From assembly GCA_950295325.1 (NCBI GenBank), contig OX485805.1, positions 28,693,501-28,757,500 of the forward strand: 64,000 nucleotides of DNA, given 5' to 3'. Position 1 is the first letter of the stretch; each line of letters starts with the position of its first letter. The DNA comes from Polytrichum commune. Taxonomy: Eukaryota; Streptophyta; Polytrichopsida; Polytrichales; Polytrichaceae. Below are positions 3,591 through 64,000 of this stretch, piece after piece. The notes beneath the pieces are model-generated. The model was given only the letters and a program-made list of their open reading frames with translations. It did no database searches and was not told where the DNA came from. The position numbers and the translations under genes are program-made.

Positions 3591-3593
3591 TAT

Positions 3594-18190: not shown

Positions 18191-18550
18191 ATATTGCAGC
18201 AAAGCAGAGCAGAGCAGAGCAGGGCGAGCCTGAGGCGATGGGGATTCCTTTACTTCCTCAGTGAGTGAGTCGTCAGCTGATCTGCTGGTCACCGCCTGGA
18301 CTGGTGTGTAGGTGAGCGAGGTAGACCTGGCGCTGGCGATGGCGCTGGCCTCCTCGTCGCGGGGGTCACGTCCACGGTCTGCCCTTCTTGTCCACTAGCA
18401 CGTTGACATACCTTTGGAGATTTGTCCCTCCCCTGCCGTTGCGCCCATGTGGACCGCCTTGCCTCTGCAGCACCAAGGCAAGCCTAGCACTGCGGGTAGA
18501 GGCGCTAACACCATCGCTGAGCATAAATACTGTTGTTATTATGTTCTATG

Positions 18551-35905: not shown

Positions 35906-35990
35906 ACTACTAACACCAGTTTGCACACTTGCGTCTGAGACTTCCCTTGCTCTAGTCTCTCTGTGTGTGCATGAGAAGCAAAGTGAGGGT

Positions 35991-40500: not shown

Positions 40501-41029
40501 ACATAAGGGAGAGGTATTGGTTTTCTCTAGTGTGTACATTTACAGAGGCTATTAAGATTCTTTTAAGTAAACGTAGATTCACAGGAGGGGGCGCTAAGGT
40601 TTAGAGATAAATTGACAATAGATGTGTTAGTTTCATTCAAGTTACATTTTCATCCAATGTTGTCATATGGTAATAGTTCCCAAAGACTCGTATATGTAAT
40701 AAAGACCTATTTGTTGTATGATTCATATTTTGTGTATGTAGTGGAGGCATTTATCACATTGAATTTGAATGTTTAGTATAAATACATGAGTCCATTTTCT
40801 AGCCTACCATCAGTACGTATACATTTTTTTTCATTATAAACTTCTTGTATATAGGGGGTTTTATTGCATGGTCACCCATGCACATCATTTAGGTTTCCAA
40901 TGAAGAGTTTAGCCCCCAGGGATAAAGGTCATGTTGATCTTATGAGAACTGAAGATACCAAAGGGATGGATTAGGAGCCGGTTCCATTGGAGACTACGGT
41001 ATGCGGGTGTAATTTGGACCTCGATTACA
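37600..41029. other. Gene-free DNA
   Basis: No conserved coding signature. A short (AT)n run lies at 38220-38236. Nothing else clear. Confidence 0.5.
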
Positions 41030-41039
41030 TTTTTGATCC

Positions 41040-41285
41040 AACACCTATATTTCATTGGTGTGTGCTTAGGTGGGGATCAAAGAGCAAACACCACAAAGGC
41101 ATATGCTTAGAGGAGATTGGACTACGCCTGTAAATATTAGTAACTACTCTACACTCAATAGCAAACGCATGTGTATTCAATTAGGGAGTCAACAAGCATG
41201 AACTTCGATAACCATAACTAATTCAGGGGAGATCCGATTTCCAATGTGGTTTTTGTTGACGCTTCATCATAGATTTGCTAATGCA
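41040..41285. repeat. Dispersed repeat family B, copy 2
   Basis: Partner of the copy in intron 2 of the bHLH gene (11822-12070), same orientation; shared blocks include GATCAAAGAGCAAACA and GTTGACGCTTCATCAT. Confidence 0.75.
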
Positions 41286-42263
41286 ACACAAATATGAAGG
41301 CGTAAACATGATCAATAGTAGACATAGACCAAGGAAAACAAGTCACTTAACACCCACACACCCACATGCAACAAGACAATCAAAGATCAACATAAGATTA
41401 TTGAGCAACTAGATGACGGTCTCTCTTCAAAGAAAGAAGCTACTATCTAAAAGCTCAATTTACAGCTAGTTGTTGAATACTCCACAACACACAGCTTGAA
41501 TGCTCCCTATAAATGACAAATCCCAGAACTAAAAAAAGAATTATCCTCGTCCGACACATGGTCCCACAAAACACAACCAAAAAGCTGAGTAATGTTATGG
41601 ACTTAATTGAGAGAGAGAGAGAGCGTAAAATGTAAAGCTCATCACATAATATCTTAGTTTACAAAGTAGAGAATTCCCTTCCTTGAAAGGACCACCGAGC
41701 AAGTGTTGGGTGGGGGGGGGGGGGGGGGTACTTGACGTGAGCCATGGGGACGTTGAAACTTGAGAGACCGGAGGGCTAGAGTAGTCCCGTCTTCCTCTGA
41801 CATGACTAAGTGTGTATTGTCAATGGGATTGTGCCTGATCATCAGATTCATTGCCTTCTTGCAAACTTAATAAATATCCAGCCACCCTAAAATGTCCCAT
41901 ACCATTCTTCCTCGGCGTCTTCACGGTGTTCCATGGGCCATGGCTGAGATTCTAGAATATTTTGTTAGTTTCATTCTGAACTCATGAAATGTTCCAAAAC
42001 TTCAGCCACGATCCATGAAATCTCAACCATGAAGGTGTTGGGTGATGTTATGTCTCAAACGATATTATGTATGTTTATTGTATTTTTCAGCCCTTGTTTA
42101 ATCTAGAGGTGTTGTGGTGTTAGGAACAACTTGCAAGATGTGGATTCTAGCATAGTGCTTTCGAAATTCTCCCCAACACCAAATTCGATGTTGAATATGA
42201 TGATTTCGAGCTCTACAATACATCTTAAATTAGGCTTCTTGGGCATGTAGTATTTAATGCCTT

Positions 42264-42296
42264 AGATAAATAGATAGATAGATAGATAGATAGATA
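42264..42296. repeat. (GATA)n microsatellite
   Basis: Seven to eight GATA units. A run of 17 G residues also occurs at 41712-41728. Confidence 0.9.
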
Positions 42297-42357
42297 CGTC
42301 GGCTATTATTGAAGCAAGTTGCATGCATGAAGAGCCTCTTCGCCTACAAACAAAGAT

Positions 42358-43079
42358 AAACAAACAAAGACGAGAGCACAGTAACTTAGCCATAGTTTTG
42401 AGAGCAAAACTCAAGGGAGCCCATGAGTGTTCCAAGAGCCTCTAGTTCATAAAAAACCAAAAACTCAAATGCAAATTATAACAACAGTGAACTAGGTAGT
42501 CATTGAGGATTATCATCATATGACAACAATGGATGAAACTTGAATTGGATGAAACGAACACATCTACCTAAGGATGGTCTCTTCATTGGAAATGTAAATG
42601 ATGTACGTAGCTCACTATGAGATTAAACCCCCAATATACATGAATTTTATGGTTAAAAACAAATGTATACGTACTAATGGCAAGCTACAAAATGGATTGA
42701 TGTATTTATGCTGAGCTTTTCAATTGAATGTGATTGAATGCCTCCACTACATATTCAAAATATGAATCATGACTTTAACATGCCCTTATTACATATAAAA
42801 TCCACTTTCACTTTCCAATGAGAAAGTTAGTGAACAATTTGTCATCCATAGCATGAAACTCAACATTTGCACCAAACAAACAAAGATTAAAGCACAATAA
42901 CTTAGCCCAATCCGGAGAGCAAAACTCAAGGGAGCCTATGCTCTCCAAAAGCCTCTAGTTTGTGAAAACCTAGAACCCAAATGTAAACCCTAACAAGAAT
43001 GGACATGGTAGTCATTGAGGACTATAACCAAACGACAACAATGGACGAAAACGTGAATTATATGAAACAAACACATCTC
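42358..43079. repeat. Direct repeat of about 205 bp, copies 514 bp apart
   Basis: Copy 1 at 42358-42565 and copy 2 at 42875-43079 share AGAGCAAAACTCAAGGGAGCC, GGTAGTCATTGAGGA, GACAACAATGGA and ACACATCT. Directly after copy 2, a shorter direct repeat (TGTC.AATTT.CTC..AAAC.TTAGGG and TTGTACATCTATCTTT) occurs at about 43080-43150 and 43271-43350. Confidence 0.8.
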
Positions 43080-44283
43080 TTGTCAAATTTTCCTCTAAAC
43101 CTTAGGGCCCCTTTTTGTACATCTATCTTTGTTTCAAAGTTATTGACACCCTTTTTCAATGCACATAGTAGAAAAAAATAAATACCTCTCCCTTACGTAT
43201 ACTATGTACGCTAATACCCCTTCTTGCTATCATGTTAGTTTGTGCGTGGTATGAAGAGTCCACCCCCTGGGCACATCTATTGTCGAATTTCTCTCCAAAC
43301 GTTAGGGCTCCCTTTTGTACATCTATCTTTACCTTTAAATTATTAGTAGTTGTTTTATTTGTACACACTAGAGAAAAATAACCACTAGTAGAAAACATGG
43401 TTAAAAAAAACCGCAGTCGTTTTTCTATTGCGGTTCTTTTGACCACTATTTTAATAGTTTTTTTGGGGGGGCGATAATTACCAATATTGGGTCACTGTCA
43501 TTCAAGGTTTTAACTGTTTACACATTCATAGATCATTTCTCTTTATATTCTGTGTATATGCATTTGCGTGCAATTAATTTTTGGAAACTTAATGTCTTCA
43601 CACATCCTTTACGTACGTAAAATATATATATATGTCTGGGTTAGTTTAGGTACGTACGTATCAGCAAGTGTTTGGTGCCTTTTGCAAAGAGTAAACATTG
43701 ATTCGGAGTTAATTTGAAATCACAGTCCCATGTCATTCCATGAGCTATATATATGACTTTCAGGAGATATGCAATTGCTTGCCAAGTCCGTATTATGTCA
43801 ATACACAGGTATGTCTTCGATTGCCTCTGCAACAATTAATGCACACCTGGGGAGAACCGGCAGTTGGTTACAAATGGTCCGGATGAAGTGGAAATACGAC
43901 CATTCGAAGTTGAAGACTGCAGAAAAGGGGCCTACCATGGAGTAGGAATTTATGAAATATACCCTATTTTTATGAAGGAAATGGCAAGTTTGTTAACACA
44001 TAACCGGTCCGACTTGCAAACCCGCGGATCTCATCCAATCGTGCCCAATGCGCTCTTAGATCGATGTTCTTCAATTCCTACGCGTGTTTCAATCGACCAA
44101 CAGTGCACACACTCCCTTTAATTGTGGGACGGGTTTGTCCTATATTGACTGCCACTCACACCGAAATGCTCCTACGTATTGGGTTCAGCCCTAGCTGCAA
44201 TGACGATGGCTGTCCAGTGCCTGTTGGAAACATGTGGCATTTGGATGCAACTTGTAGTCAAAATACAGTTGCAGCCAACTTGC

Positions 44284-44390
44284 ACTGTCTTCTGAAAACG
44301 AGTGTCACTCGATTTCCACTGTCTTCTGAAAACGAGTGTCGAGTCACTCGATTTCCACTGGCACTGGAAATCGAGTGACACTCGATTTCC
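44284..44390. repeat. Cluster of direct and inverted motifs, candidate CACTA subterminal region
   Basis: ACTGTCTTCTGAAAACGAGTG occurs at 44284 and 44318 (34-bp period). CACTCGATTTCC recurs four times and its inverse GGAAATCGAGTG once, forming a near-perfect 16-bp-arm inverted repeat around 44345-44378 (one mismatch). In En/Spm elements such dense short repeats bind the TNPA protein; that role here is inference. Confidence 0.6.
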
Positions 44391-44399
44391 GTTGACACC

Positions 44400-45733
44400 C
44401 GCAATGCGTTGTGCCTCAAGCGGACTGAACCCAAAAACGATTGCGACATGCATTCAACCTACACTCGAATGCTACTTGCTCTTGTATTCAAATCATAGAT
44501 TACAAATGGGACAGGTCAATGAGCAAGGGACACTGGAATTGAAAAAAATGGTCTGTACAATGGTTGCAATGATAACTACATTCCCATGAAAGAAAGTCGT
44601 GCACAAAATTACACACATACATGTCTATCAAGCGTCATAGTCTGCACACAAACTTCACATCATACATTTCAGCGATATGAATATTTTGGGCAACATACTA
44701 GAGTTTCATTGTTTGGCAACTCCAATGAAGCTCAGTAACATTATCCGCCATGCTCAGTTAATACTGCGTCCCACATCTCTCAAAGTCTCAATGCAACTAC
44801 ATTCAATGGTCCCAATATGTTTGAACCTTTCTTCTCTGAAAAATGAACTACTGTGGATGACATGTTCCAACACGTACAAATTTGCTATTGAATCTATGGC
44901 CACATTTCGAACATTGAGCAGAGAACAGGATTGGCGTTCCGGGTCCAGGATGCTGTAGCGCTTCAAAGCCGCTGCCACAGTCCATAGAGTTCCAGACTTG
45001 CCAATCTGCACAAATAATTACACTTTCAGGATTTATGCTTTGTACACTAAACAACTCCACATTTAGTGACTGTCATAACAAGTAGATACAAGGCAAGAGT
45101 TTAGTGGAGCTTGTCATTTACTCTGCAAAGTATACAGCTCCAAGTCCAAGTATCAGAAGGAACCTTACACTAGACTCACTATAAATTGATGCAAATACTG
45201 CATGAATAGGATAATTGCCATGTCATCTCCTTAACAAGTTAAAAATTACATCACATATTAATATCTATTTGAAGACAATTCAAACGAACAAAAAACGCCC
45301 ACAATGCAAGCACGGATCATGTAAAAACAACTGGCACGAATAACGAGTCGAAATTTTACCTGGAGAGGAGGAGTTCATAGCACCCCAATCTGGAAAGGCC
45401 GGTTAGATGAACACATGCGTGTCTCTGTATATGAAGAATACAATGATTCGATTTCAAATTTATGGAGTCAGGTTGAATGTAGCTAGACATGAAACCCAAA
45501 CATGGCATGCCTACATTCAACCTGAAACCATAAACTTGACCTCAAATCAAGTTTAGCAACCCCCAAGGACAACAGACCTCGGATCCGAGGCCTTCTGCAA
45601 AGTAGCCTATTTCGATCCACAGTAAGTCAAGTTTGGAATGGTGATTGAGATGCACCCTCTTGACTTTCAAAGACATTCAAGCCTGAAACTGAGCCACATG
45701 AAAAGATGATTGCAAGGTCTTCTGAAAGCCTAC
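44400..45733. other. Transposon-internal region without a recognised gene
   Basis: Minus-strand frames at 44754-45060 are open but show no family signature. May be further captured or spacer DNA. Confidence 0.35.
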
Positions 45734-47028
45734 CTTGTGGGAGAAATTTGGCATGAATGGTTCAAAAAGTGTCGTCAACAAATGAACCGGTCCAACAGAT
45801 GCCTTCAACACAATTGCACAAGCAGGTGGATCTTCCTTGTACAACTTCCAGAATTTGCTGTCCTGTTCCCATGAACCATGATTGATATGACAGAAAGTTA
45901 GGATTTACAAACATCGCCATGATGGAGCTCCTCAACATAGAATCAATCATACAAAGGTAGGACTTTCACGGCACAAATGGGTCCTGACAATTCTCCAAAA
46001 CTTCTTTAGGTGCAGTGCCTGTAAATAAAGGTTGCCAAGACTGGAAGCGTTCATTGCTACTCTAAGCATGTCTTCAACTTCAATTTCTCCATAGCGTCAA
46101 CATACTCAGTCACAACCTTCTCAACTTCGGATCCGAAATTGGCTGTGAGTTCATGCTCTACAGGGTTGATAGCTTCGGTAGCCACTGATATATACCCACC
46201 TTCCCCTGTCAAAAAATCCCACAAAACCTTCATCTCATAATCATTTGTATATGATCATTTCATATATAATTTACAAGCAGAAACACTAGTCTCATAACAC
46301 TTTCATAAACTAGCTAGAGAATACTTTCATAACTTTTGAATATGAGGTGGTGCAGACCTGAAGGTTTGGCCAGAAAAAACAAGGTCTGATGAACAAAGTT
46401 GCCCATATTCTTTAGCAACTCATTGTTTTGCTTGGCCTGAAGGTCTGCCCAGGTAAACAGAGTATCTGAAACCTGTAGTAAAGACATCATTAAAGGGTCC
46501 AAAAAAAAAAAAATCAAAATAATAATGAATTTATTGGAATATTTTTTAAATGATCGTTGCCATACAAATGCACAACCCATAAAGGAACATTTTGTTCACA
46601 CAAGCCTTTGTGAACTTCAAGTTTGGATTAAAAAGGAATAGCAAGGAAATCCGTTTTAGACAATAATTGCTTCCACAGTTCTCAATTATGTTTATCCTTC
46701 ATAACTGCAAGAACGACCACAACATTCACACACAGCATGCAGAACATATTGGAAGAACAACATAGATGTACCCAACAGCTAAAAACTATATAAGAACTTC
46801 ACAGATAGATTCAAGCAGTAGCTAGACACACTAGTTGATTAAGGATACACGAGGTTGCATTTTAGCCTTGCAAGTCTCTCAATAAGGATAAGATTAGTGT
46901 ACCTTTGGCCGATTGACAAGAAGATAGTATCTCCATACTTCTACAGGAATATTTGTGGTTTTCACGTCATTACGAAAATCCCCCACACCCCTATTTTTTG
47001 AGAATTTTCTTGCACAATTCAAGGATAG
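45734..47028 (-). pseudogene. Methionyl-tRNA synthetase fragment (truncated, frameshifted, introns kept)
   Basis: Four exons of a plant cytosolic-type MetRS can be read: 47028-46903, 46472-46358, 46205-46019 and 45862-45734. They give the KMSKS-loop region as KFSKNRGVG (plants usually KFSKSRGVG), then NIPVEVWRYYLLVNRPK, SDTLFTWADLQAKQNNELLK, YVDAMEKLKLK, and DSKFWKLYKEDPPACAIVLK..LFEPFMPNFSHK. Intron phases fit throughout except that the third exon lacks one base near 46045, which brings in a stop; its 3' splice donor is GC instead of GT. The catalytic N-terminal half and the C-terminal end are missing. It lies 1 kb downstream of the transposase gene, same strand. Retained introns show it came from genomic DNA, not from mRNA. 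Not expected to make a working enzyme. Confidence 0.88.
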
Positions 47029-48039
47029 CTACATTTATGTAACATCACAAATATATGTTGTCAACAAAGTCGCACATGAAAGATCCAAACATCACTTGAA
47101 AGCAGTAGTCTTCATCAGCTGAAGGTATTAGTTTATACTTGCTTTACATTCTGAAAGTCCGTGCTCTCCACAGAGGAGTAAAATGAGTCCATGCAATAAA
47201 ATACATGAAGTCATGCAAATCAGTGAACCCACACCGTAGTCCAACAGAAGCCAAGGGCAGCAGATCTGAACAATCTCCTACACGCTGAGCTCCGATAAAC
47301 TGAGCAGCTGGAACTCCTAGTCATCCGACTTTCAAATTTCAAGGTACAAGGAAGAGAACATACCTGACTCATAGTTCAAGTATTATGTGACACTTATTGT
47401 TTTCATCAGGGTCCAAGGTTCTCCAGTACCCAGGAGTGTGCAGGGGAAGATCAACTGTGCAACAAGATTAAACAATGATTTAAAACAGATAGATTCATCA
47501 TTCACCTACCTGAACAAAGTTGAGGCAAGGCCCAATATTATGTCTCGCATCACAAAATATAAACATCTTAGAAGCAAGACCTCTTTGCCAAGTAATAGAA
47601 AGCTCTACATAAAAACATCCTCAAATATGACAAGTGTAATCTTCCTTCAGTGTAAGGTAGACATGTACGTCCACAATCTGCCGTCCACAGTCCCATTCCC
47701 AGATGTCCCCAGAACACTTCGAATCTTTGAGCTTTAATAGTTCGGAAATAGGAATCTCATCAACCACCTGAAATATTACATGACCACATGATTGACATTA
47801 GTAACCCACAATGTTATCACAATTGCCACATCAAAGATGACAAACCATTGCTGTGTCTGTAGAGACGATGTGCACAAGGGGTAAGTTCGATGCATTGCAT
47901 TAACAGGAAACATCAAAATATCATGTTTGAGTTGCATTTATGCAATCAGAAATACTGGTGTCTACCGGAAAAATGCCGTCAGCGCCATTCGAGGTGTTGC
48001 AAAGCACATGACTGCCATGTCCGAATTCCAAGGTCCTAT
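47029..48039. other. Spacer between MetRS fragment and transposase gene
   Basis: Probably the 3' UTR of the transposase and decayed MetRS intron or exon DNA; a possible relic LMKT at about 47105 fits the expected upstream MetRS motif but is too short to call. Confidence 0.35.
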
Positions 48040-51000
48040 CTAATTCCTTCTTGGCAACCTCCTCCGGTTGCCTCCCCTTCCCCTTCCCCTTCCCCTTCCC
48101 CTTCCCCTTCGTCCATTGGCCCCTGCATGTTGGTGAATTTGATGTGGATCACCAGCCACTAGTGCATTCAGCCTGGCAATCTCCGCGGCTGGAACTGCCT
48201 CCCCTGCATTCACAGGGTTTGGCCTGAAATGCGCTGCGTTCATGTCCAACGGTAGTTGGAGGCCAATCAGATCCCCCGATATCCCCAATGTCTGTTCATC
48301 GTCGTTGTCCACCACTCTCCGCGATCGCGGCTCCTTCTGGAGCACCACGCGCCACGCAGGATGCCTCCAATCCTCAATGAAGAACACCTTGCGCCATGTG
48401 CACAAATAGTCAACAAAGGTATTGTATGGATTCACACAATATATGCACATCCTCCGATGCACCATACATTGGGGCACACTTCAACAGGGAGGAGCCACAT
48501 TCCCACATGAACCCCAATCAGACTCACTACATTGTGATACCTGGCGGATTGTGGCCGGTAACACATACGGTTCTATGTCACGGGCAATCCGATCATTGAA
48601 CCTGACAATCGTGAAGCCATACTGGTCTACCTTCGTGGATGACTGTGCCCCAGGAGCATTGCGAATCCATGAACCACGAAACACTACCCTCCTTTGCGCT
48701 GAGTATCGAACAACAATAATCTCTTTCAAGACTCCTACCATACTCACACCTGCGCTTTGTCCCTCCTCTGCTCCAAATATGCTGGCGATTCCATAATCTT
48801 GTGTCACGAACCCTCGTTCATCTCCCTCGTTGTACACCCTGTAGTGGTTCCCATAGGCCCACATTTGCTGATAACTCTCAGCATCTCGAGAAGGGAGACT
48901 CGATAGTCGGAGCAAATCGATGTCAACATTGCGTGAACCATGTGTGTTGACCAACTGCGTGGTGTATGATGGCAACCAGTCCACAAAGTCAGGCAAGTCG
49001 TTCAAGAGGTCATTAGGATAAGCACGTTGTTGTCTTCGGCTAAGCCCTCTTAATGCAGCATCCCTCCTGAATGTTGCCCTTCCTGCCTCCAGTTGCTCTT
49101 TAAGGGCCTGGTATTGTCTGGCAGATACAAAATAACTATACATTAGTGGGTGTGACAGCACCTGAACGCAAAGGCCATGGCTACATACAGACTAGGCGTG
49201 AATTTGATTATTCATCAAGACATAATGCATATGGTTTACCTCCAAGGCTCCCTAGTTGCCTCTGAATTCCTAATAATCCAAGAATGGATTGCTCTCCGCT
49301 CCTCGTTGGTTAGTTCTCGGTTTAGGGCTTTTCCTTCTAGCAGTTCTCCACAATCACCCAACTCCTCCTCGTCATCCCAAATTCTTCGTCGTGTGAAGGG
49401 ATAGAGCTTCAAGTACTCGGTGCAAAATCCGAGTGCCTCATCATACAAGTAAGCATTCGCAATGGCACCCTCGGGGTGTGCCCGGTTCCGGATATATTTT
49501 TTTAAAACATTCAAGTGTCTCTCTACCGGATAGCACCAAGCATTGGCAATTGGGCCGCACAACTTCACCTGCCTAACAAGATGGATTGGCAAATGGACCA
49601 TAATGTCAAAAAAAGAAGGAGGAAACCATACCTCCATTAAGCACATTGTTTCGGCTGCATAATGTTGTAAACGCTCTAACTCTGTCACAGCTATGACCTT
49701 TTTGCAGATCATTGTGAACAACCTTGCAAGCCGAATAATGGCCGATCGGGGCCCCCTGTCCATAAGATGCCTCAAACAAACAGGGAGTATAAATTGGAAA
49801 AAGATGTGGAAGTCATGGGACTTCATGTTACCAATTCTATTCTGGAGTATGTGCTTCTGCATTGGCCCACAATAGCCCGTCGGTAGTGATATTCCAGCCA
49901 ATTGCTCTAGAAAATTTTTTTGTTCCTCTTTGGTCAGCACGTATGGTGCAGGAGGCTTGATGTAATTTCCACCAGGCACCGGCCCTCGACGAACCCACAA
50001 ATGTTGCCGTATTCTCTCCTCCTCCATATCTCGACGCGAGGCTGCGGTGTCTTTCGCTCCAAATAGTAACTTCACTAAGCTGTCGCATATGTTGCGCTCA
50101 ATGTGCATTACATCCAAGAGGTGCCTGATTGGAAGCTTCTGCGGCTACAAGCTGCAATAGTAAGCATATGTTGCAATGTGCATAATGGTCTCGTAAGTCA
50201 CTAGGTGTTTTCAACAACAAGCCACAACATGCTAGTGTCCAACATCATATATGCACATTTGGGACCACAACAACCTGCAAGCAAGTAGGCAATGCTTCAT
50301 TGTCTGATATTCATATATACATATGTCAAATTACATATATTTCATTTGCAGTTGTAGATGAATGAGCAGGCTGGCAACAACAAACTGTCCATTTTGATAG
50401 AGTCAGGGTATTGTCTGCATTGCATTTATTCTTAATTCATTACAGACTCTGAAGTTAAACATTGCAGTGTGTCCAGCAAGGACCAGGAATATTCACAACA
50501 TCCCGGTGATCATATCATCTTCCTGGCCATGTAAGGTAGACATGAATTGACAACCAGAGATATTCAACCATGTCATTCCTTTCAATGAAAATTAGGAGAA
50601 TAAATAGCAACAGGTTTCGCAATACTAACCCTCCAGTATGGTAACTGGTATAGCGCTGATACTCTCTTTACACCGTGCTCCTTGGCAGGAAATTCGTCGT
50701 CCTTCTCTGTGCCCCCTCCGTCAATGTAGGCCTCTGATTGACGGCCATACCGAATTGTTTGGTTTCCTGTTAGTGGTTCGGCCGCCGTTTCATGGTTTGC
50801 TTCACCGTCAAATGCTGCAGCTGCGCCCCGAAAATAATGGTCTCCTTGCAGATATCTTCTATGGCAGTTGCAGTACACATTTTTCCTCAGTATTTTGGAC
50901 CTGCGAGATACTGTGTGGGGTCCGCATACAGGACAACCTTTGAACCCTTTTGTAGTTAGTCCAGAAATCAATCCATAGGCCGGAAAATCGTGCAATGTCC

Positions 51001-52781
51001 ACATCAAAACGGCCCTCAGGTTGAAGTGGGACACTCCCAAATTAGCTCTAGCATCCCATGTAAGAACCCCCCTACGACTCCACAGTTGTTGCAACTCATC
51101 TACCAGAGGTTGTACGAAGACATCAATATTTGAACCTGTTAGACTTAATTTAGTTGGAATCAGAAGACATAACATTACAAAGTATTTTTTGGTTACCAAC
51201 CACGGAGGCAAGTTGTAGTTGAACACAATGACTGGAGTTAAGCTTTGGGTTGAGCGTTTCTCAGAATATGGGTTCATGCCGTCCAGGGCAAGTCCTAGAT
51301 GGATATCCCGCGGATCTCGACCGAACATATCATTGCCCGCTTCAGGTTCCAGTTCTGTGTTCACAAAATTCCACTGTGGAGAATCAGCAGTGTGTCTCAT
51401 CTTTCCATCAACCGACTTGTTAAAATAGTGCCATACATTTAACTTTGACAACTTCTTAGAGCTAAACATCCTTTGCAGCTGAGGGATAAGGGGAAAATGA
51501 CGCAATATCAAAGTCGGTACCCTTGACCTCCCGCACATTCTGTACCTATCATGCTCACACACTGGACATTTCTCAACATCCTCTAAATCACCATTAAATA
51601 AACAACACCCATTAGGACAAGCATGTATCATGTTATATGCCAACCCAAGTCTCCGCAGAATTTTGCTCGCCTCATACTCCGTTTTCGGAAGACAATTTCC
51701 CGCGGGCAGAATACTCATACTCAGGAGCATAAGTAGCTCATTCGTAAATGTGTTGGACACACCGTGTGTCTTACAACAATTCACTATGAGCAAGGTTGCG
51801 CATAGCATGGACAAGGTGCTGCCCTCATACAAGGGCAGTGTTGCGGCAATATCAAATTCGGGATTCGAACCCATTCGGTCCTCGGGAATTTGACCCAGCA
51901 GCTCTTCCAGGTCCTCCTCATCACTCTGTTCGTCGTCCGATGCATCCCCTGGCTCCCTCCTGGAGGAATCACTAGAGTTCTCCTCCGCGTCCCCATCTTC
52001 GGCCCCTAAATTGGCCGAACCCTCCTCTCCGCTGGAGCCTCCATCGACATTGCTTGTTCCATGTTGACGTGGGCATTGGCTGTGATCGTTACTGCAATTG
52101 GACTGCAGGGACCTTGTTTGAAACTCAGCAATGTATTCACCTTCTGACCGCACATTAATGTTGCTCACAATATCCGCATCTCCGAGTCCATCCTGCCGGT
52201 GCTGCATTGGGGACCCCTCTGCAACGGCAGCTTCGGGGCAGGCGGCCACAGCCGCACGCATGTGTATGTTGTCCGCAAACGTGAAAGCATTCCTCACCAT
52301 CATCCCAATTCCAACGCCGTCGTCGAGAGCTATCTCAGCTATTGGCTCATTCAGGCCGAGAAATGCTCGAGCGTGTGAGCCAATGTGCTGATCCCACTCC
52401 TCGTCAGATGAGTCATAGTCGTCACCCTAAATGTCAACATACACCAATATTAAAACACACATCGACAACAAAATGGTCACGTCAATAATAAAGTTTAAGT
52501 ATTTCATGACCACTCCCTCAACTATGGTCGATGTGCGTAATTACCTGTGTACTACCTCTCAAGGCACCATGTCGGCCCCGATGCCTGAGGTGCCTTGCAA
52601 CTGTGCTGGTCTTGTAGGGTCGTCTCCGCCCCCCACAAAGATTGCAAGGGCACCTGTACCTAGACAATGCATTCCTGTCAGCACGATCCTCGTCTCGCTG
52701 CTGCAACTTCAAATCCCTTGCCTTGATGCGGAGTGGATGGTCTAGTGGAAGCCGAGCTACTGGTTCACCCTCCATGCTCAT
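48040..52781 (-). CDS. CACTA/En-Spm transposase (TNP2/TNPD type), apparently intact
   Basis: Five exons join in frame: 52781-52545, 52426-50630, 50138-49240, 49117-48541 and 48387-48040, about 1285 aa. Exon 1 carries a Cys/His motif (C44, C46, C49, H64, H71; RCPCNLCGG) as in transposase-associated N-termini. Residues 80-280 are acidic. A zinc knuckle CPNGC..CPVC (349-369) precedes the TNP2 transposase domain with LALDGMNPY (Asp461), LHDFPAYG (Asp559) and GCPVCG (577-580). Exon 3 begins KLPIRHLLDVMHIERNICDSL and holds DUF4218; exons 4-5 hold DUF4216 (YGIASIFG, RVVFRGSW, VFFIEDWRHPAWRVVL). The tail is an RG-rich stretch made by a CCTTCC repeat. Borders at exons 1-4 are canonical; the last acceptor reads AAG rather than CAG, and is the weakest. 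The enzyme would cut and join element ends in the nucleus. No stop or frameshift was seen. Confidence 0.92.
48073..48110. repeat. (CCTTCC/CCCCTT)n repeat encoding the RG-rich tail
   Basis: Six units of six bases, in frame with the transposase, so each unit adds Arg-Gly. Length changes here would keep the frame. Confidence 0.85.
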
Positions 52782-55700
52782 GCCTCAATCTGCATCATGT
52801 TTTAGCACCATGTTATTCTTTAATGAACCCAGTCTTGCATAACAGAAGAACGTCCCAGCTACGGCAGGCGACACATAACTTTGGGCAGTCCAACATTCAT
52901 AGTCTTGTAGACTTATTGCACCATTACAATATGAGATCAATGTGAAGCAACTCACCTCGCACCTTGGCTAATTTGCTATCAACCACCTTAAAAGGGTGCA
53001 AATCATTCACTGAAGGGGACACCGATATTGCTAGTCATACACACGGTTTTCATCCACATCAACTCACGCCGGGGCACCAAGTAAAAATGGCGCTAAACCA
53101 CTCCAGCATCCACACTACTGTCTTGTTAGCTGTGTCGTTGACCATATACACAAGTTATTCACTCAGGCAATGGACCTTAGATATACTGCCAGCAACAGAC
53201 ACTCCGAAGAATCATTAGGGCAAGTAGTGTTGTCAATGTCTGCCTGCAACAGGGGTTTCATGTAAGCATCCATACTTACATGGTCCTCGCAGATCTTCTG
53301 GTACACGCAATCTTACCTCAACGGTTCCCCTGAGGACTCGATCGTCAGCCGGTGAAGCCCGGTTCCCTGCATCCTCCGCAGATAAAGACCCCATGCCTTC
53401 TACATACTGCTACTTGACACAAATACGAATCAGTACCTCCCATGAAAGTGAGGTGATCTTCACAGAATATGGGGACATTGCTTGACATAATTCAGGAGGT
53501 AAGATGGAAAGCCCATCAAAGTCCTATTCATGTTGTTGCGCGCATTACGAAGGCACTTTATATGATCATGGTGCTCAATCAGTGGCTGCCATTCTCGACA
53601 CAACCTGTTCTCCCATACCCAACATCATCACCAGACTGGGTGAACCCTCTAACTTTTCGTACATTTCTCAGCTGAGTTGAGAATGACACACATTCTGACA
53701 CACATCATACGCTCTTACACAGTGAACTAAGAATACGTTGTATGTTTAAACCATTAGACTTCTAACAATCCTCCAGGTTGAAGATGGTGTAGCCATTCTG
53801 GCAGGCAACTCAACCGCAAACATCTACATCCTTGCAGCATGACAACCATGATAACTATATATTACTGAATCTGCCCATCTGTAACTGATGTTACACTCCG
53901 ACTCTGCATTGCCGAAACAAGTCTGGCTACAGATCGAACTGCATAGGCAGTGTGTGGCATAACGGAACACGCAGGCACGACAATGTTGAAGAGGACCCAG
54001 TGGGTCAATCCATAGTGCTGAACCAAGCCATTGTTGCGTGGTCAACATTGGTGGAGGCAGGTTTCATATATTTTGGGTGAAAACATTAAGAATCGTATCG
54101 GCAAAGCACACTAGCCAAAAATGGGGCTTGGAAACTTACCTTTCGGATCGCAGACTCCGCTGTCAGATTGCATCTGACAACAGAATGCCCTTGTAATTAC
54201 GTTCTGCTGCGACGGCGATCTCCTCCAATAGGTGTGACACTCCAAGTGCATACCCACACACAACTGGGTCAGTCGTCACGATAAAAACATACTGAAGAAT
54301 GCTGACCAAGCTAAGGATGCAAGATGCCAATAATGACATAATGACATAATTGCTACACAGTTTGCCCGGAAATCCAGTTATAGAAGTTAAGAAAATGTCA
54401 CAAAATAGATAACAACGCCAAACATTCAAGCTACTCTGAGACAAGGGAGGACAGCAGCCACGCGTCCCTCGTCCGCCTCTGAGAGCGTGTGCAATTCAAG
54501 TCCCAATCACGGAGACGTTCATTCTGCAATGAGGCACAAGATCAGTCATAGTACTGCAAGTTTTATGATCGGCACACGGCGATGACTTGATCTACTCGAC
54601 ACAATAACTACGACATGGCATGAACAAGGCTGATCCACGCCGTCATACAATCACCCACACACAGAAACATTGGGGCGGATCCACCACAAATCGCAGAGTG
54701 AATGGATCTAAACAACACATCACGGCTACACAGAACCTGACATGTAGAACGCCAAGCTAGTCAGCAATGGCGCAAATTTCCTCGGGTGAAAGTGCGACGA
54801 TGCCGTCATGTAGACGGACAATAGAGCTTTGTAACACAGCTCTGGACCCGGGAGCCCAAACCGTCGCAGATATGCACACACAAGGTGAAGGACACATGAA
54901 CTCTTCACAAAAGAAAGAGATAACCTCGGCAAGTTGCAACGTCGCAGACCCCGCAAAAGGCAGTCCTCGCCAAGATAGCCTCGGTTGTATCATTCACGCT
55001 TTGCGGCATGACACAAAGGAACCTCACACAATGCGATCTACAATGGCGCAACGCGTCGTGAACGCCGATGCGTTACGCGGGGTATGTGTCCTCCCCTAAA
55101 CCAGCAGAATGCAACACACATCCAGCACCAAGATCGCTGAGTTGCCGTCTACTGCAATACGAGCTTGCCGAAACCTCCAAAAACCATGACAAAGCTGCGT
55201 ACATGCAAGAGCAGATGGGTAGAACGAACGGGGATGACAAGAATGGCGGAGTTCAAGCAGGGTGGAGCCTACCTGTGTAGAGCCCGCCGCCGAAAATACA
55301 CAACCAGACTGCCCGATTAATTTTGGCCGTTGATGGCTCCCTGCCCGAGGCAATGTGCTGCCCGAGGCAATCTTGACCGTCCATCAGGGGGCGACGATGT
55401 GGATGGGAAAAGTTATTCACACGTGTTGAGGATGACGTGTCTCCCACCACGTCATCGGTGGGGGCTGGAGTTAACCCCATGATTGCCATGGCCATGCTGC
55501 CAGGCCGCTGTGCGTACGTGGGGATTTGATCCAGCCCCCGGGTGATGATGGTTGAAGATCTTCGACACGATTCCCCTTCGCTCGAGGCTGGCAGTTGGCC
55601 CACCCTCATCAGGCACACTTTGTTGCAGACTCTTCCCATTTCGACTTTCCCCCGGAACGGATCTCTTTCGCTTCAATTTCCCGCTGCTTGGCAATTGAAT

Positions 55701-58154
55701 TTCCCTCGAGGTCCCTCTGAGTCGGTTTGGTTCTGCCTCGACTTGCATACATCCTGTCAATCACCTGCATTCGTTAGGAGTCTCTGTTAGGTGCATCGTC
55801 TCCTCGTCTCCGCGAATCTTTCTTTTCTCTCAGACTCACTACATCGTCTCCTCCTCGCCTTTCTCACATGAGCAGACTCTATCCTCAACATCAGCGTGCA
55901 TTGCCTCTCGGTCTTTGTGTGCCTCCGCCTTGCTACCCTACACTGTACAAGGAGTGGAGTGTTGCAGTGATCCATGGTCACTTTCGCACTTGCCTCCCGT
56001 TGGCCAATCCAATCACCTATCTGTGCGCAGCCTGTGGTTTCCATCTCATGCTGGCATAGGTGTGCAACATGTGCAGTTTTCATACACGCAAGTTTCCCTT
56101 CGTTCTTTGTCGCTCTGACCTGCCTATAGCATGCCGGATGCGGACCCTAAAGCATCGCCATGTTTTTTGCGCCAGGGGTCTTAGTCAAGCAACCTTCTTT
56201 TGGTGTTGAACCCTTCGCACGCCCCGTCGCCTTTGTCTGGGGGCTCGACTATCACTTGTGCGTCAGAGTGCACCAGTTTGTCTGCCTGTGCCACACAACC
56301 CCACACTGTGCACCCTGATGTGTTTGACCTGTGTTGGGTCGGTGTGCAAACCCAACATGTTGATGCTGCCAAGATCCCCCGCCAATGTTGTTGTTTTGAG
56401 CTACCTTTAACACGCAGGATGTGGCTGTGCCATTTTCCGTCATCAGTTTTTTCAATTTTGGTCTGCTTTCAGTTTGTTGGTGATTGTTTAGGCAACATTT
56501 GATACATATGTCCATGTTAAAACTAAACCCTGCTCAAGTTGCCTCCTGTGAGTACGGTCTTGTTGTATCCGGTATGTGGCTATTTTGTGAAGACTCTTAG
56601 TCAGATCTGTTTTGAGTGGTGTATTGGCCCAGCATGTTTGCCTATTTCCCCTAGAATCAAATGTGTGGACTATGGTGATGGGCTATTACACCACGGAGAG
56701 ATCATCTGTTACAGTTTTCCTGTCATCGTTCACTTCAAAATGACCATATCGTCATATTTTTCAGTCTTGGTCTGCGGCAAGTTTGTTGGTGAGTGTTTAG
56801 GCAGCATTTGATACATATGTCCATATTAATCTTCCTTGCTCAAGTTGCCTCCTGTGAGTATTCTCTTGTTGTTTCCGGTATGTGGGCATTGTTTGATCAC
56901 TCCCAGACAGATATGTTTTGAGTGGTGTATGGCAAAGTGTGTTACGACTATTTCCTCTATCCTCAAATGTATGTCATATGGGGATTGGCTATTACATCAC
57001 GCAGAGTTCCCTCTGTAACAGTTTTCCTGTCATCGTGCATTTTGAAATGACCATATCAATGGTCCCCTCCTGGATGAGGGAACCACTGCGCAATTGTGCC
57101 GTCGACTCGCTGTAGTGTCGAAGTGGTCGTATTCGGGTGAGATGGCAATGGAAAAGTAGTCCGGTGCTAACTATTTTTTGGCATGCTTGTGACCACAATT
57201 ATTTCTTAATCCGGGGTGACATTGTTTAGATGCGTGGTTGAGAGATAAACTTATGTGCTGGTATTCTCTATTAAAGACACTATGCTTAGAACAGTATTTT
57301 GCCTTTGGCACCACTGCAGCGTCTTGAACGTGCACACAGGAATGTTGAAAACAAACCAGAAGAGGCTGTAAGTAATCCGATTTATGTAGCGATACTTTGC
57401 TCACCAATAGTTAGCAATGTCGATGTGGATCCCGTATGGCCATGTCCTGTGACATGTAGTTGTATGCTCCTTGGAACTACACACTCCCTGGGATTTGTCT
57501 TCCTTCCAATTCGTGGTCATTGCTTATGCCGTGTTCAAGTTGGACAACGGCAATAGTGTATTGTGTTTGATGCCGGTTTAAGGGTACACGCTGTGTCGTA
57601 TATTTCTCCATGCTTGAGTATTCCGTGTTGCTGGATGTTAGATTCTTCTCTTTTGATTCTCTATGTGACACCCTTTTTAGGACTCTTCACAAAATTTCTC
57701 AACTTTTTCTAGCTTGCAGGCGGTGTACTTTTGCAGATCAGAGATCACTCTCCCATTGGTTCATGATTATGGAGTAGCAGGCCTCTTACATACACATTTC
57801 ACATCAGCTTATCCAAGATCAGCAGGTTCTTTTCACTTTTCCATCATAAACCCATTTCCAGCCTCCATTCAACCTTGATCCGTATATTGATGGTCTGTAG
57901 TGTGTAGTGGTCTCAAATCAACCTCCATTTTTTATTAGGTTTCTCTATGGCAGAATTCAGTGATCGAGGCCATGCCAGTTGCAATGCAAGATATGGCCAG
58001 GTATTGATGAAGTTGGTTGCAATGCCTCCGTGATAGTGCACAGATTCCACTCTGTAACTTTGGGCAGACACAATCTACGACCACAATTACGTGATCGCCC
58101 AACACTCAGAAGTCCTTCGCATAGTAGGGCCCCGATATTTTTCCCAGTTCTATA
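52782..58154. promoter_or_regulatory. Divergent intergenic region between the two transposon genes
   Basis: Both genes point away from this 5.4-kb stretch, so it should hold both promoters and leaders. Many short overlapping frames on both strands, none with a family signature. It includes a 309-bp tandem duplication at 56443-57056. Exact promoter sites were not identified. Confidence 0.5.
56443..57056. repeat. 309-bp tandem duplication inside the transposon
   Basis: GGTCTG starts at 56460 and 56769; both copies share TTTGTTGGTGA.TGTTTAGGC, CATTTGATACATATGTCCAT, CTCAAGTTGCCTCCTGTGAG, TTTTGAGTGGTGTAT and CAGTTTTCCTGTCATCGT. Copies differ by scattered changes. Confidence 0.9.
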
Positions 58155-61100
58155 TTGGACAATTATATGAATACTATGGCCGACCAATACAGTCAGGGGA
58201 CCCTCACGGAATATGACGTCGTGAGGAGCACCCAGTTTGTGGACGACTTGTCCCGACCGGTATGTGTTTCTCGCACTCTGCATCCTCAGTTGGCCAACAC
58301 TAATGCATGGCCTTGTGGCAACATGGAAAACGTGCCTGTAAGTAATTCTGATTTATGCACATTCACATTGAATTGCACTCTTTTGCAACGTCGTTGAAGT
58401 AGTTAGCTGTCATTTCCACCACAAATAGGTCTTGCATTGACACTCATGTGTTCCCCCTTTGTATATACAGGTATTTAGAGGTGCATCAGCGCAACCACAG
58501 AGGATCGACCAATCACAGGTCCGACCCCTCCCCTCCTCACCAGTGCAGTCGCCCTGAGATCATACCGATGTCTCTTTATTGTCCTTCTCCCGTGCATTAT
58601 GAATTGGATGTAATGCAGTTCTCTCCTGGCATTGCCAATGTAACATATTGGATGCCCTGCATATAGTTGTCTAGGTTCCGTGCTCATGGTTGGTATGCCC
58701 CAGACGAAGATAAACTTGCCTACTCACAAATCATTGTATGCAGATATTCAGCATGCCTTATTCAGCGCCCTATCACCAACAACAGAACACAATTCCGTGG
58801 CAATCTGTCCAGCCGGTTTATGGAAGTATGGGTGGTCTACCCCAATCCATGTACAATCCGTATATTGGTACACCAGTTACTCCATCCAATGCATACAACA
58901 ATCACGTGTCATATCCTGCACAGCCACGAGACACGCAGTTCGATGGGACTACCTCTGGCCGCGCATTGTTGCCGCAGCAGAATCGGCCACAAGGTGCACC
59001 ATTTGGCTCCCCACCCAGTCATGCGGCAGCCGCAGAATACTACACATCAGGACAGGTGCAAAATCCACCACATGAAAGTACGCAACCTCGCACACGGACA
59101 CAGTGTATGCCTGTGGAAGCTGCGGAGGGCCAGACAGTTGCTGGACTCCTAACTGGAATGGGACAAGGCAGTTGTGGGCAACAAAGAGAAACCCATACAA
59201 CCAGAGATACGAGTGGGGGTCGTGTGGAGTCTAGCAAGGTTTTGGGAGCAGAGAGTGCACGGCCAGCGCCATCAACATTGGGGCGGCAATCTGTTCACAC
59301 AGTTGCCAGTGCCCATACATCATCGGAAGGAGGTACCTTGCGCGACCGGCGTCACTCCCTGAAGGAGCCATCTTTGGTGATAAATACAAACAATAGCCCC
59401 ACATTGTTAAGTCCAACATCCAGTAAGTCATCCCCACCCTCCACGTTGTCACAGAGAAAGCAACTTAGAGTAGAAGAGAAGTCATATCTAAAAGAAGTGA
59501 AAAGATCCATTGCAGAAGGTAGAGTGCCACAAGTCCGGCTCGAACAAAACCACAATGGTGCCATAGTCAAATACAAAGCGCAATTCTTGAACGCACTCAA
59601 ACTAGCTGCACTTGCAATTGTTCCATGCGCCGATATAGACATAAAGAATCCATGCACCATGCAAGAAATCATGAGAGAAGTGAAGCGACAGTTCATAATA
59701 GAGAAGCCACTCCCGGACGGCATGGTAGAGGGGTATCTCCAACGTCTATACAAGAGAAATAGATCATTGTATCATCGTCAATGGCTCCTACACGGTGATA
59801 GTAGCAGGCCTGATGATTGTTCATCAGCGGCATGGTTGCAATTGGTAGATTACTGGAAGTCATCGGAAGGGAGCAGAGAATGCGAGAGAAACAAGGCAAA
59901 TGCATCAACAAAGAAAGGCACGGGAGTACGTTATCATATCCTCTCCTTGTACTATGAAAATTTGTAATGAGGATTCAGCTGTTCCTAGTTCAGGAATTGT
60001 GAGGTCCACCGTTCTTTGGTGGCTGCAAGGATTTGTCTCCCCTCACACCTCCTTGGGGTGTGCAATTCTTGACACCTGTCCTAACTCATCACTTTGTTTG
60101 GGTGTATGTAGGCAAAACGCCATAGTACCTCCAGAGATAGGAGATCCACAACCGAAAGTGAAGGTGGCGCTCGTTGCAGCTCCTATGCGCAGGAGAAAGC
60201 ACATCCGGTAATATCATGAACCCCTAAATGGCCACTTTATTGTGTTTGCATGAATTTTCCAACACAGGAGTCCCACTGATTGACGGCAGGAGTTCAGGAA
60301 GTATAACACTTGTATTTTCCCCCTAAACCAGACTGCACACGTAGAATCTCTAACCCATGGGTGTGCTGCCCATGTTATGAACCTGCAGAAAGAAAATCCC
60401 TTACGGGGTACGGGACTGCCGCGTCTATCGCACACATCGTCGTCATCGAAAATTTCTTCTTCGGACGGTCTTGTGGAGCGACCGCCCATGCTCGACATTA
60501 GCAACAAACTCCATGCATTGGTAGATGAGTTTGTATCTAATTTGTCGTCAGAATGTGACTCTCTAGCTAACATTGTCTGTGTTGAAGCCCATAAGTATGT
60601 CGCACACGACAGTGCATTAACTCAGACACAGACTCAGAGGCCGAGCAATCGCACGACGTCAGAGGTGTTGAAGGGGTTGACCAGGCCCTCCACCACTCCC
60701 TTAACCACATTGCAGAATAGAGAAGGCAAGTCACATGTGCAACCGGGCAAACCAAACTTCCAGGCAGGCAACAAAGGAAATAGAGAGGAGGACAGTGACT
60801 TGCGATACATGAAGAACACGAAGGCGAAAAGTGCAGCTCCGCAGGAGTTGGACGACACAGTTCCCTTTAGAGTTCTGGAAGTGGATATTGAGGTCCAGAC
60901 GGCGAAGGATGTCCCACATCGTGGCGGCCGCACAAATCACACGGCGGCGAGAGGGAGACCCAACCAACCTGTTGAGCTATTGTCATCCGACTCAACTTCG
61001 GATGAAAGCCCTCGTGCACGCGCCAAACAATCTGTGAGAAAGCCAGTCACCCAATTTGCCACAAAGGGAAGAGACTCAACCTCTCAAAGGAGCTCAAGAA

Positions 61101-62258
61101 GGAAGGAGACTAGGAGCCCCTCCTGGTCTCCAGAGAGTTCACATTTGATGAACTATTCATATGAGGAGGATACGGCAGGACTTGGTGGGACAAGTCCTCA
61201 TGGTGAAACGACGTTCCCAAAGTTGAGGTGGCCTGCGGACTTAGGCGATGGCTACCTTGATGGAGGTTCTGGTCAGAAAAGTGACGACAATGATGTACAT
61301 AGCAAAACAATGAACGGGCCCAAACATGAAAGGTTAAAATCCGATGTGGACATCAGCCTGGAAGAGGGTGATGAATCTAATGGAGAAGATACTGGACGCG
61401 ATGCAATCCAAACAGAATCAGATGGCGAAGAGCTGCCTGTGCTACCCAAGGTTCCAGTGAAGCGGAAGGTGGCGAATCCACCCAAAGTCTCCGAGAGAAG
61501 GACCCAAAGAGGCAATGCAAAAAGTACAAGTCCCTCGACAAAGAGACAGAGAACTCCGCAGATGGATGCATCTGTCATCACTCAACTTTCATTTGCCAGG
61601 CGGCCTCCCAATAGTGTGAGTGTTCCACCTTCTGGTTGTGACTGTAATGCATAATAGAATTGTCGTCTTCAAAGTTGGCTGAAGTTGACCCTGTAATTAA
61701 ACGAATGGCAGTGACTTGATATAATTGTGGGTATCGATATTTGTGTCGCAGAGTCCAATCAGAGTCAGAGTAAAGGTTTGGGTTTTGCATCCAAAGTTCG
61801 ACGGGAAGGTTGTGGCGGAGGCCTACGCCGGAATCAACCACAAGTCTAGGTGCCTAAACGACGAGCAGGATTTATGCAAGAAAGGAGAACAAATGATTAG
61901 TGTAATAAGAGTGTTCTACAAAGACACTCCGGTGATGTTCAAGAAGGAAGGGCGCTACCCAAAGCACATCGCCTTCCTGGACCAAGCAGAGGGACTGCCC
62001 AACAGTCCCATATTGTGGGGCGTATGCTACATAATGCAGATTCCGACTATGGAAGAAATAACTCGGTTGATGGGTAAGCTCACCTCAGCTGTTTGTGGCA
62101 GGGCATCCTCCAATGCGGTTGGAGAGGGGCCGAAAGGGAAGAGAACGAACTCACCATCCACCACGACAGAATCTTTGGAAGCTGCCAAGCCGCGGGATTC
62201 TTCGCAATTGAGGAAGAAGACCGAGCAGAACAGACCCCCCAACAAGAAGGGTACCTAA
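58155..62258 (+). CDS. Second CACTA transposon protein, Transposase_24-like (TNPA-type accessory factor)
   Basis: Six phase-0 exons join in frame: 58155-58337, 58471-58518, 58744-59925, 60112-60207, 60389-61615 and 61752-62258, about 1080 aa. The first two exons are the least sure; translation could instead begin at MPYSAPYH in exon 3. The N-terminus is rich in Gln, Pro, Ser and Tyr. Residues 325-480 match the plant Ptta/En-Spm (Transposase_24) pattern: charged helices, VEGYLQRLYKRNRSLYHRQW, then AAWLQLVDYWKSSEG and ECERNKANAS. Exon 5 is charged, low-complexity and probably disordered with basic nuclear-localisation-like runs (KRKVANPPK, TKRQRTP). Exon 6 (VKVWVLHPKFDGKVVAEAY .. ILWGVCYI) may be a diverged TNP1-like domain. 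In En/Spm the equivalent factor binds subterminal repeats and helps transposition; assignment of that role is inference. Confidence 0.72.
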
Positions 62259-64000
62259 ATGCCAAACAAAGTGAATGGTAAGAGGAAGGTCCCACCCAAT
62301 GTCAATTGCAATGTTTGAGTCTTGTAAGTAGTGTTATTTGCAGTAACAGACCCTCACGCGAAGCACAAGGAGTTGACGGATTTGTCGCCGACAAATTGTA
62401 GTGGAACTGATCCAATTCAGCCCTGTATTTGTTGACCCTCAACCCCAATATGCATAATAATTTCGGTTGTGCAGCTGTGCCCCCTATGTGTAGTAGGAGG
62501 TGGAGATTTATTAATTAAGGTGCAGGAAAGCTGTGCGGCCAAATTCAGCATATAAATGTCAACAACACGTGATATGTTTACAGGCGACGAGTTCCCCCCA
62601 CCCCCTCCCCACCATTCATGGATTTTGTTTATTGATAATGTCACTTTTATTACATCACATATTTTATGTTGGATGATCCCTTGAATGAGTTCATGAGGAC
62701 ACTTGTTTGGATATGAAATGTTGTTACTTGCAAGGTTTAGCCTCACGCCAGCCATGCACGGTATTTGTGAGAACACCCAGAACTTTGAAGAATAGTATGT
62801 AGTGCAGGTGCAGACTATTGTTTATCAACGCATTGTAATTGAGGTGTGCCGCACAGTAAGCTGCTCGGCATTCCTTGGACACACATGCAAGCTGATATGA
62901 ATGTGTTGAAAGGACAGGTTGTATTTCACACCTACTCGCAGCGACATATTTAGAGGCATGACTCCGAATTTGTCCGGGAATTTTAACGTCCAGGTGGTTT
63001 CTTGCAGTACGGGGACGGTGTCGCAATCTGTTTATGAGTCGGTTACCTGGAATTCGTGCGGGATGCAGACATTGATGACTGCCCACAGCGAAATTGGACT
63101 GCCCTCTGGAGAAGAGCCCCAGCATATGGAGCACAGCAACCCGGTGGAACACATAATGGAAATTGTGGAATCTTGATTGACAAAGTTGGTGGGAGCGATT
63201 GGAATGAGCCTACATTTGGTCACCGTGGAAGGAGACCATCGGACGACGCTGTAACTAGGAGATATGTATTTTAGTATGGACATATGTAGGAATTTCCGAG
63301 TTCCATGAACTGCATAATTAGATGATGTCAATGCCACAGTTTACATATGGACATGTTTTTGTAGGATGAAGCAAGAAGTTTGCCTTGGTCTTATGTGGAG
63401 TGATATGTGGCTCTGATACTCACAAATGACCACAAAATTGTAGACTTGATGGCAAGGAGGACATATATGATTTCAAAACATTCTGGCGTTGAATTGGCAA
63501 TTTTGAATGATACCCAATTTATGTGGCGAGAGTTCCTTGCTCGTCCTCCATTATATGTGTTGGTTTTCGTGGAAAGCAACGTATATGCTGCATTTTTTTC
63601 ACTTTACAATGGTGTAGTTACTGGCATAATGCCCTGCATTCTAATGAGCTAAGAATTGTTGTTATCGGAGTGTTGCATACATCTTGTACGCTCCGAGTAT
63701 GAAGCAATCCATGGGCATGCATGAAATGTCTGTGAACATTGGATTGATACAATATTATGTACAGCATTAAGTGCATTGATCCATTGCCGTATGCATGGGT
63801 TTCTCGTTTTTAGTCTGCAACTTCATTTTGAGCAGGTTCCATGTGATGTGTCGGTGTCAGAATCACATTTCACACGACACATAGGCAGTAAAACCAACTT
63901 TGTACACATCCAAACTCAATTTGCTGAGGTTCCGTTGCCCTTCATTCTACTGAAAGACTAGCCACTCAAAGGTGTTCTTCTCACTATTGTTCTTTAACCA
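62259..64000. other. Downstream region, no firm gene
   Basis: Two overlapping plus-strand frames at 62919-63274 follow a good acceptor (TTTCTTGCAG at 62998-63007), but they compete with each other and show no family signature. The rest is AT-rich with no clear repeat. Element terminus not seen. Confidence 0.35.

Follow-up and report, generated by a model that had tools for sequence, protein, structure and literature searches.

A very young, probably autonomous CACTA transposon with two divergent genes in Polytrichum commune

The element and its two genes

The stretch of DNA considered here (the ‘window’, 64,000 nucleotides at C3:28693501-28757500 of the Polytrichum commune genome, which is assembled as 408 Mb in 64 contigs) harbors a CACTA transposon with two genes on opposite strands, one of which encodes a TNP2-type transposase. 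A canonical CACTA end, CACTAGTAGAAAACATGG, at window position 43383 forms the left border of the element, and the inverted partner end is found at C3:28758349 (window position 64849, 849 base pairs (bp) past the window edge), giving a length of 21,467 bp from the left to the right terminal inverted repeat. These repeats begin with CACTA, as in the CACTA superfamily, and extend over 70 bp with 2 mismatches; the left one (43383..43452, plus strand) starts at the same base in 11 of 11 identical left ends and is adjoined by one copy of a target duplication, AAC, at 43380..43382. The genes are enclosed by a left arm (43383..45611, plus strand) and a right arm (62259..64000, plus strand, and on, outside the window, to 64849, the last base of the right inverted repeat). 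The first-pass annotation had placed the element at 44284..62258, which proved too narrow. The repeats at 44283-44390 (plus strand), considered as an element end and rejected, are an internal cluster of direct and inverted CACTCGATTTCC repeats, about 0.9 kb inside the true CACTA end, that may serve as candidate binding sites. The element belongs to the ordinary CACTA superfamily; it is its state and its architecture that are unusual.

The TNP2 gene lies on the minus strand in five exons, which encode a cysteine- and histidine-rich region with a weak resemblance to Transpos_assoc (exon 1, 52545..52775), the Transposase_21 domain (exon 2, 50630..52426), DUF4218 (exon 3, 49240..50144), the first part of DUF4216 (exon 4, 48541..49117) and the end of DUF4216 followed by the stop codon (exon 5, 48040..48387). 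As had been predicted, the exons join in frame, yielding a protein of 1285 amino acids with zero internal stops and with GT/AG at every junction; an alternative acceptor for exon 4, at 49135, likewise keeps the frame. The full-length protein matches the profiles of Transposase_21 (1.1e-60), DUF4218 (5.3e-37) and DUF4216 (6.4e-8), all above the Pfam cut-off, while Transpos_assoc was matched by the exon 1 open reading frame at 0.0041, below the cut-off, and was not listed in the scan of the whole protein. Once exons 4 and 5 were joined, the DUF4216 score rose from 21.7 to 33.5 bits and the match covered profile positions 3-73 of 73, which speaks independently for the joining of these two exons. 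The donor of intron 2 (GG at the exon edge, then GTTAGT) is the same in 5 of 6 close relatives; in the sixth the match ends differently and GTTAGT stands three bases further on, both remote relatives have GT at this donor, and for the exon 3 acceptor 4 of 8 relatives yielded a counterpart of equal phase.

The open frames of the element are not due to chance: its stop-free runs reach 614, 456, 417 and 302 residues, whereas 200 dinucleotide shuffles of its sequence gave none longer than 290. Three acidic residues of TNP2 are presumably candidates for catalysis (assigned by motif, not mapped to a structure). The D of DG.NP is present in 9 of 9 TNP2 sequences and the D of TWD/TRD/TVD/CWD in 8 of 9; the E of H[IV]E[RK]N is present in the window copy and 5 of 8 relatives, and was not seen in the sequence retrieved for the remaining 3. 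The ratio of nonsynonymous to synonymous substitution rates (dN/dS) for exon 2 is 0.11-0.22 against six relatives with 76-87% protein identity, and two remote relatives are saturated; these eight were picked for long open matches from 73 listed, with rows containing stops left out and decayed relatives under-represented.

The second gene lies on the plus strand and comprises six exons (58167..58259, 58471..58518, 58744..59925, 60112..60207, 60332..61615 and 61752..62258, the last including the stop codon), with a conserved domain that begins at residue 225 of exon 3. Here too the proposed exons join in frame, all in phase 0 and with GT/AG junctions, into 1069 amino acids with zero internal stops. 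The description of this gene as ‘Transposase_24-type’ did not hold up as well: the open reading frame of exon 3 matches Transposase_24 (PF03004) at an E-value of 0.069 and 13.7 bits, versus a gathering cut-off of 28.7, the whole protein gives no match to that profile at E<=0.1, and exon 3 itself gives none at E<=1. A scan for the same profile of 5 of the 13 members of the second-gene alignment reached a best E-value of 0.068, and the two remote homologues scanned scored 27.1 and 12.9 bits, the higher value belonging to a protein with 33% identity encoded head-to-head with a TNP2. From these comparisons the second gene is likely to be a distant relative of Transposase_24 that falls below the Pfam score. 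Exon 3 shows a dN/dS of 0.29-0.44 against 12 relatives (from 79 rows, picked for long open matches, with two near full-length rows containing a stop left out and decayed relatives under-represented). The sampled exons, one per gene, are under purifying selection.

Copies, age and insertion sites

A genome search with a 1717-bp query from the left arm gave 93 rows, with 40 of 112 candidates scored, and at least 11 of these rows were 100% identical over the whole query length. Six copies besides that of the window were then read (c1 to c6). Three of them (c1, c3 and c6) are identical to the window copy across 21,467 bp, c2 differs from it at one base over its full length, c4 shows one difference in the 20,785 bp that precede a gap, and c5 shows none in 17,733 bp, up to a gap inside the second gene; full-length copies therefore number five, with 0 or 1 difference. 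Both frames are uninterrupted in 6 of 6 copies that can be read across both genes (the window’s, c1, c2, c3, c4 and c6), and no shared disabling mutations were seen in them. At substitution rates of 6.5e-9 to 1.3e-8 per site and year, one difference in 21,467 bp would correspond to roughly 1,800-3,600 years, in an assembly that would hide differences if collapsed.

The 11 identical left ends are preceded by ten different flanking sequences, and of the 11 right ends read ten are likewise distinct, the flanks of c3 and c11 being alike at 300 of 300 bases on each side. The full-length copies with matching CACTA ends that had been anticipated were found, but the anticipated 3-bp target duplication stands in place at only one site, that of c3 (CAT/CAT, C6:20279763-20301229); the c11/c11b pair (CAT, C2) has the same flanks as c3. 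Re-pairing of the flanks adds seven more sites, for a total of eight distinct ones with the equal 3-bp duplications expected of CACTA elements: c1/c1b (ACA, C7), c5/c6 (AAG, C6), c10/c10b (GTT, C2), the left flank of the window copy (C3) with the right flank of c1 (C7; AAC), the left flank of c7 (C5) with the right flank of the window copy (C3; TTT), c6-left with c9-right (AAA) and c9-left with C7_24-right (GTT).

The AAA and GTT flanks permit more than one pairing. The c6/c9 pairing was chosen because both flanks contain the same internal repeat and rejoining them leaves no stop in any of the 165 residues tested. For c10/c10b the reason was an open stretch of 148 residues, and c9/C7_24 was then the remainder. 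When flanks were rejoined over about 1.1 kb, an open frame of 216 residues was restored for c5/c6 and one of 251 residues for c7 and the window copy. In the shorter test applied to c6/c9 and c10/c10b, wrong pairings gave 126, 115 and 76 open residues, and frames alone therefore do not settle c10/c10b or c1/c1b. For the AAC pair, the flanking repeat runs across the insertion site (69% over 106 bp): the right flank of the C7 copy consists of AAC and then sequence resembling the flanking repeat of the window locus. One insertion (left flank C6:229443, right flank C2:56253518) presumably struck a leucine-rich-repeat gene with many internal repeats, and c3 lies in what we take, from its translated string, to be a retrotransposon pol-like frame.

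In the assembly, the window copy is followed by a right flank of 1008 bp (C3:28758350-28759357) and then by a 200-N gap (28759358-28759557); most likely this flank belongs to the C5 insertion site. The swaps accompany 200-N gaps and are therefore read as assembly chimeras, so that the swapped flanks, the window’s included, are most likely an artefact of assembly. The conclusion that the element is a very young, recently active CACTA transposon is well supported, and the earlier suggestion that it ‘may be recently active’ is considerably strengthened by the five near-identical copies, ten left flanks and paired 3-bp duplications.

Other repeats were noted around the copies. About 280 bp past the right end of c2 another CACTA element starts, whose first 18 bases are the same; a related family has a TNP2 close by, at C6:27441296 (75%). 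In the window, a nest of direct and inverted repeats with arms of 35-84 bp, including two direct copies 200 bp apart, occupies 40414-43381 and stops at the start of the element, and two tandem arrays lie at 18486-19989 (a 308-bp unit in 4.9 copies, 96% matches) and 35987-37407 (a 202-bp unit in 7 copies, 87% matches).

Gene layout and the left arm

The start codons of the two divergent genes are 5391 bp apart, in agreement with the 5.4-kb shared upstream region that had been described, and the stretch between them (52776..58166) is presumed to hold both promoters. It also includes a tandem duplication of about 307 bp at 56440-57057, 80-89% alike. Across the genome, all 73 TNP2 matches listed (of 717 candidates) and 71 of 79 second-gene matches (eight short fragment rows being left out) were compared for position. 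A second-gene match was found within 30 kb of 41 of the 73 TNP2 matches, and in all 41 cases the genes are head-to-head, with 0 of 41 pairs on the same strand or tail-to-tail; the other 32 have no second-gene match within that distance. Sorted by TNP2 identity, the pairs comprise 12 identical copies, 17 at 69-88% and 12 at 43-49%, among which five remote pairs that are 14.8-25.6 kb apart and one middle-class pair at 17.3 kb may not be single elements. About 28 pairs are left after collapsing the identical copies and one trio, for which random orientation would give such uniformity with a chance of about 1e-17, as a figure for pairs that share descent and are non-independent. The departure from the En/Spm arrangement to which the first-pass annotation drew attention is thus real, in that the genes occupy opposite strands, but it is not peculiar to this element, being the rule here. 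Given 41 of 41, the layout is best read as a trait inherited within the local clade.

The kinship of the left arm and that of the gene core are discordant. The left arm (43383-45611) is 93-99% identical in most blocks (81-90% in some) to six other elements, at C1:47.48, C1:63.97, C3:42.84, C4:51.26, C5:16.90 and C7:7.19 Mb. In those on C4 and C5, the DNA of TNP2 exon 2 is only 75-76% identical to that of the window copy, and synonymous differences amount to about 60%. Three others lie within reach of TNP2 matches with 75-78% protein identity (one of them, at C1:63.97, 35 kb off), and near C3:42.84 there is no TNP2 among the matches listed. The nearest TNP2 relatives by exon 2 DNA are instead at C5:11.82 Mb (87%) and C6:32.77 Mb (86%), and the left arm resembles theirs at 82% over 220 bp and 66% over 899 bp, respectively. 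With arm identity high where TNP2 identity is low, and with the arms of the nearest TNP2 relatives different, the left arm therefore has its own history. Intergenic patches (70-89%) are common only to C5:11.82 and C6:32.77 among elements with a listed full-length TNP2. The right arm is matched best at C6:32.78, with 69% identity across 1.5 kb and 88% in the final 177 bp, and in this it sides with the gene core and not with the left arm; the right arms of the arm-sharing families are 71-82% alike where they match. Three of these families show mutual DNA identities of 71-72% in second-gene exon 3 (three pairs). About 165 bp at the inward end of the left arm (45441-45610) recur at 93-95% identity in at least 20 other places listed.

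Between the left arm and the TNP2 gene, a captured host fragment at 45615..47636 (minus strand) has a single colinear counterpart elsewhere in the genome, at C4:15585506-15588290, to which it is 84-89% identical with introns included. In two frames of the fragment, domains of methionyl-tRNA synthetase are matched in their proper order, namely tRNA-synt_1g on 46314-46595 (2.2e-4, 20.6 bits, above the cut-off of 20.1) and Anticodon_3 on 45677-45904 (7.1e-4, 19.9 bits, below the cut-off of 23.5), and from these two domain matches the host fragment may be named methionyl-tRNA-synthetase-like. The arm block ends at 45611 and the fragment starts at 45615, a junction that would fit template switching during gap repair.

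Interpretation and comparison with known systems

The element is most readily understood as a single copy of a CACTA transposon that is very young and probably autonomous and that has a divergent helper gene, a reading to which we give a probability of about 0.8. Its TNP2 would be the DDE transposase, cutting the element at its CACTA ends and generating the 3-bp duplications, and the second gene most likely encodes a helper that binds subterminal DNA, the part played by TNPA in En/Spm; copy number, intact frames and selection bear indirectly on its probable autonomy. With the genes on opposite strands, both products cannot come from the splicing of one transcript, and separate promoters would be used. 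The left arm may have been taken from, or given to, another CACTA family, through recombination or through template switching during gap repair, after which the element would have spread to at least ten sites. A broader proposal, of a clade of back-to-back, separately promoted two-gene CACTA elements in which end-arms are swapped between families with long-diverged transposases, the arm exchange (perhaps with capture of the host fragment by template-switching repair) preceding the burst, is advanced tentatively, as an even bet at best.

Several observations weigh against a young and autonomous transposon. Within the 1.3 kb at the left and right, no 9-mer common to both sides reaches three occurrences, and the CACTCGATTTCC-type cluster is found on the left side only; no confident domain or fold was found in the second gene. 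As assembled, the window copy has AAC on its left and TTT on its right and thus no duplication, the flanks of c2 (AAA/CGA) do not pair, and the left ends of c2 and c4 and the right ends of c2 and C61 are without a partner. The 148 open residues of c10/c10b are weak beside the 126 reached by a wrong pairing, those of c1/c1b (93) and c9/C7_24 (52) are not above wrong pairings, and the pol-like frame at c3 is open over only 76 residues in a longer test. Finally, 200-N gaps lie beside or inside copies, and the copies may look more alike than they are, should the assembler have used a single collapsed repeat more than once.

The last point leads to an explanation in which the near-identical copies are mainly an artefact, few of them being real and the rest having arisen when scaffolds were built around a 21-kb repeat that had collapsed. 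The gaps, the splitting of flank pairs between C3, C5, C7, C6 and C2, the partial duplicate pieces on C2 and C7 and the shared 300-bp flanks of c3 and c11 would all fit; yet ten distinct left and ten distinct right flanks meet the element at the same base, re-pairing yields eight sites with equal duplications, three with a long rejoined frame, and the single-base differences in c2 and c4 mean that more than one unitig underlies the copies, which makes this explanation distinctly unlikely. Alternatively, the swaps could be real, identical copies on different chromosomes having recombined and so rearranged them, as the pairing of the window’s left flank (C3) with a C7 right flank and of c7-left (C5) with a C3 right flank would suggest. 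Such exchange seems very improbable, for the foreign right flanks extend only 593 bp (C7) and 1008 bp (C3) before reaching a 200-N gap, and the C7 scaffold itself carries, further on, a right flank with an equal duplication (ACA).

A mobile but non-autonomous element, with a dispensable or functionless second gene and a related family’s helper acting in trans, would be in keeping with that gene’s want of a confident domain and with a left arm held in common with other families, which could permit cross-mobilization. We regard it as unlikely, since both genes are open in all six readable copies and exon 3 of the second gene is conserved at the dN/dS given above. It is scarcely credible that the left arm was not exchanged but is extremely conserved for a function in cis: the arm does hold a repeat cluster that might be a binding platform, but the arms of the two nearest TNP2 relatives are only 66 and 82% alike and the right arms of the arm-sharing families only 71-82% where matching. 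On the preferred account, a very young and probably autonomous transposon, roughly ten near-identical insertions together with two open, selected genes make a good starting point for the study of a living CACTA system, and the proposed arm exchange would show in a concrete case by what route ends come to be held in common by families whose transposases have diverged, which could then mobilize each other.

CACTA elements are described as the largest group of terminal-inverted-repeat transposons in a moss in the available parts of one report (PMC11704416); the word CACTA is absent from the main text of another, on Physcomitrium (PMC7466625). In the parts available of six further papers (PMC8978399, PMC8195511, PMC4158355, PMC2528002, PMC4219821 and PMC2756281), a divergent two-gene layout is not stated. 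Caspar-type elements of wheat and barley and Jozin of Chenopodium resemble the present element in having a transposase and a second open reading frame, and in some of them that frame (ORF2) holds Transposase_24; its orientation goes unstated in the text available, where a divergent layout is neither shown nor excluded (PMC2756281, PMC8978399, PMC4158355). Cactavine-5 of grapevine and other gene-capturing, transduplicating or Pack-TYPE CACTA elements, as described in the available text, likewise carry a genomic fragment of a host gene (PMC2528002), but the carrier here has both transposition genes open and occurs in near-identical copies.

Tgmt* of soybean (20.5 kb) is alike in size, in its tnp2 and Transposase_24 (8e-05) domains and in its many exons, but according to the part of the source available both domains belong to one 14.6-kb single-strand gene (PMC2613891), whereas here there are two divergent genes. 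En/Spm of maize and Tam1 of snapdragon, as that same part describes them, share with the present element a CACTA structure with a TNP2/TNPD-type transposase and a second protein, their products coming from overlapping, alternatively spliced transcripts of one region (PMC2613891). Compared by description and not by sequence, the difference is that a single transcription unit provides both proteins in En/Spm and Tam1, whereas here the genes stand back-to-back on opposite strands. The divergent layout thus separates products that are tied by splicing in En/Spm, and two promoters could set the dose of transposase and helper.

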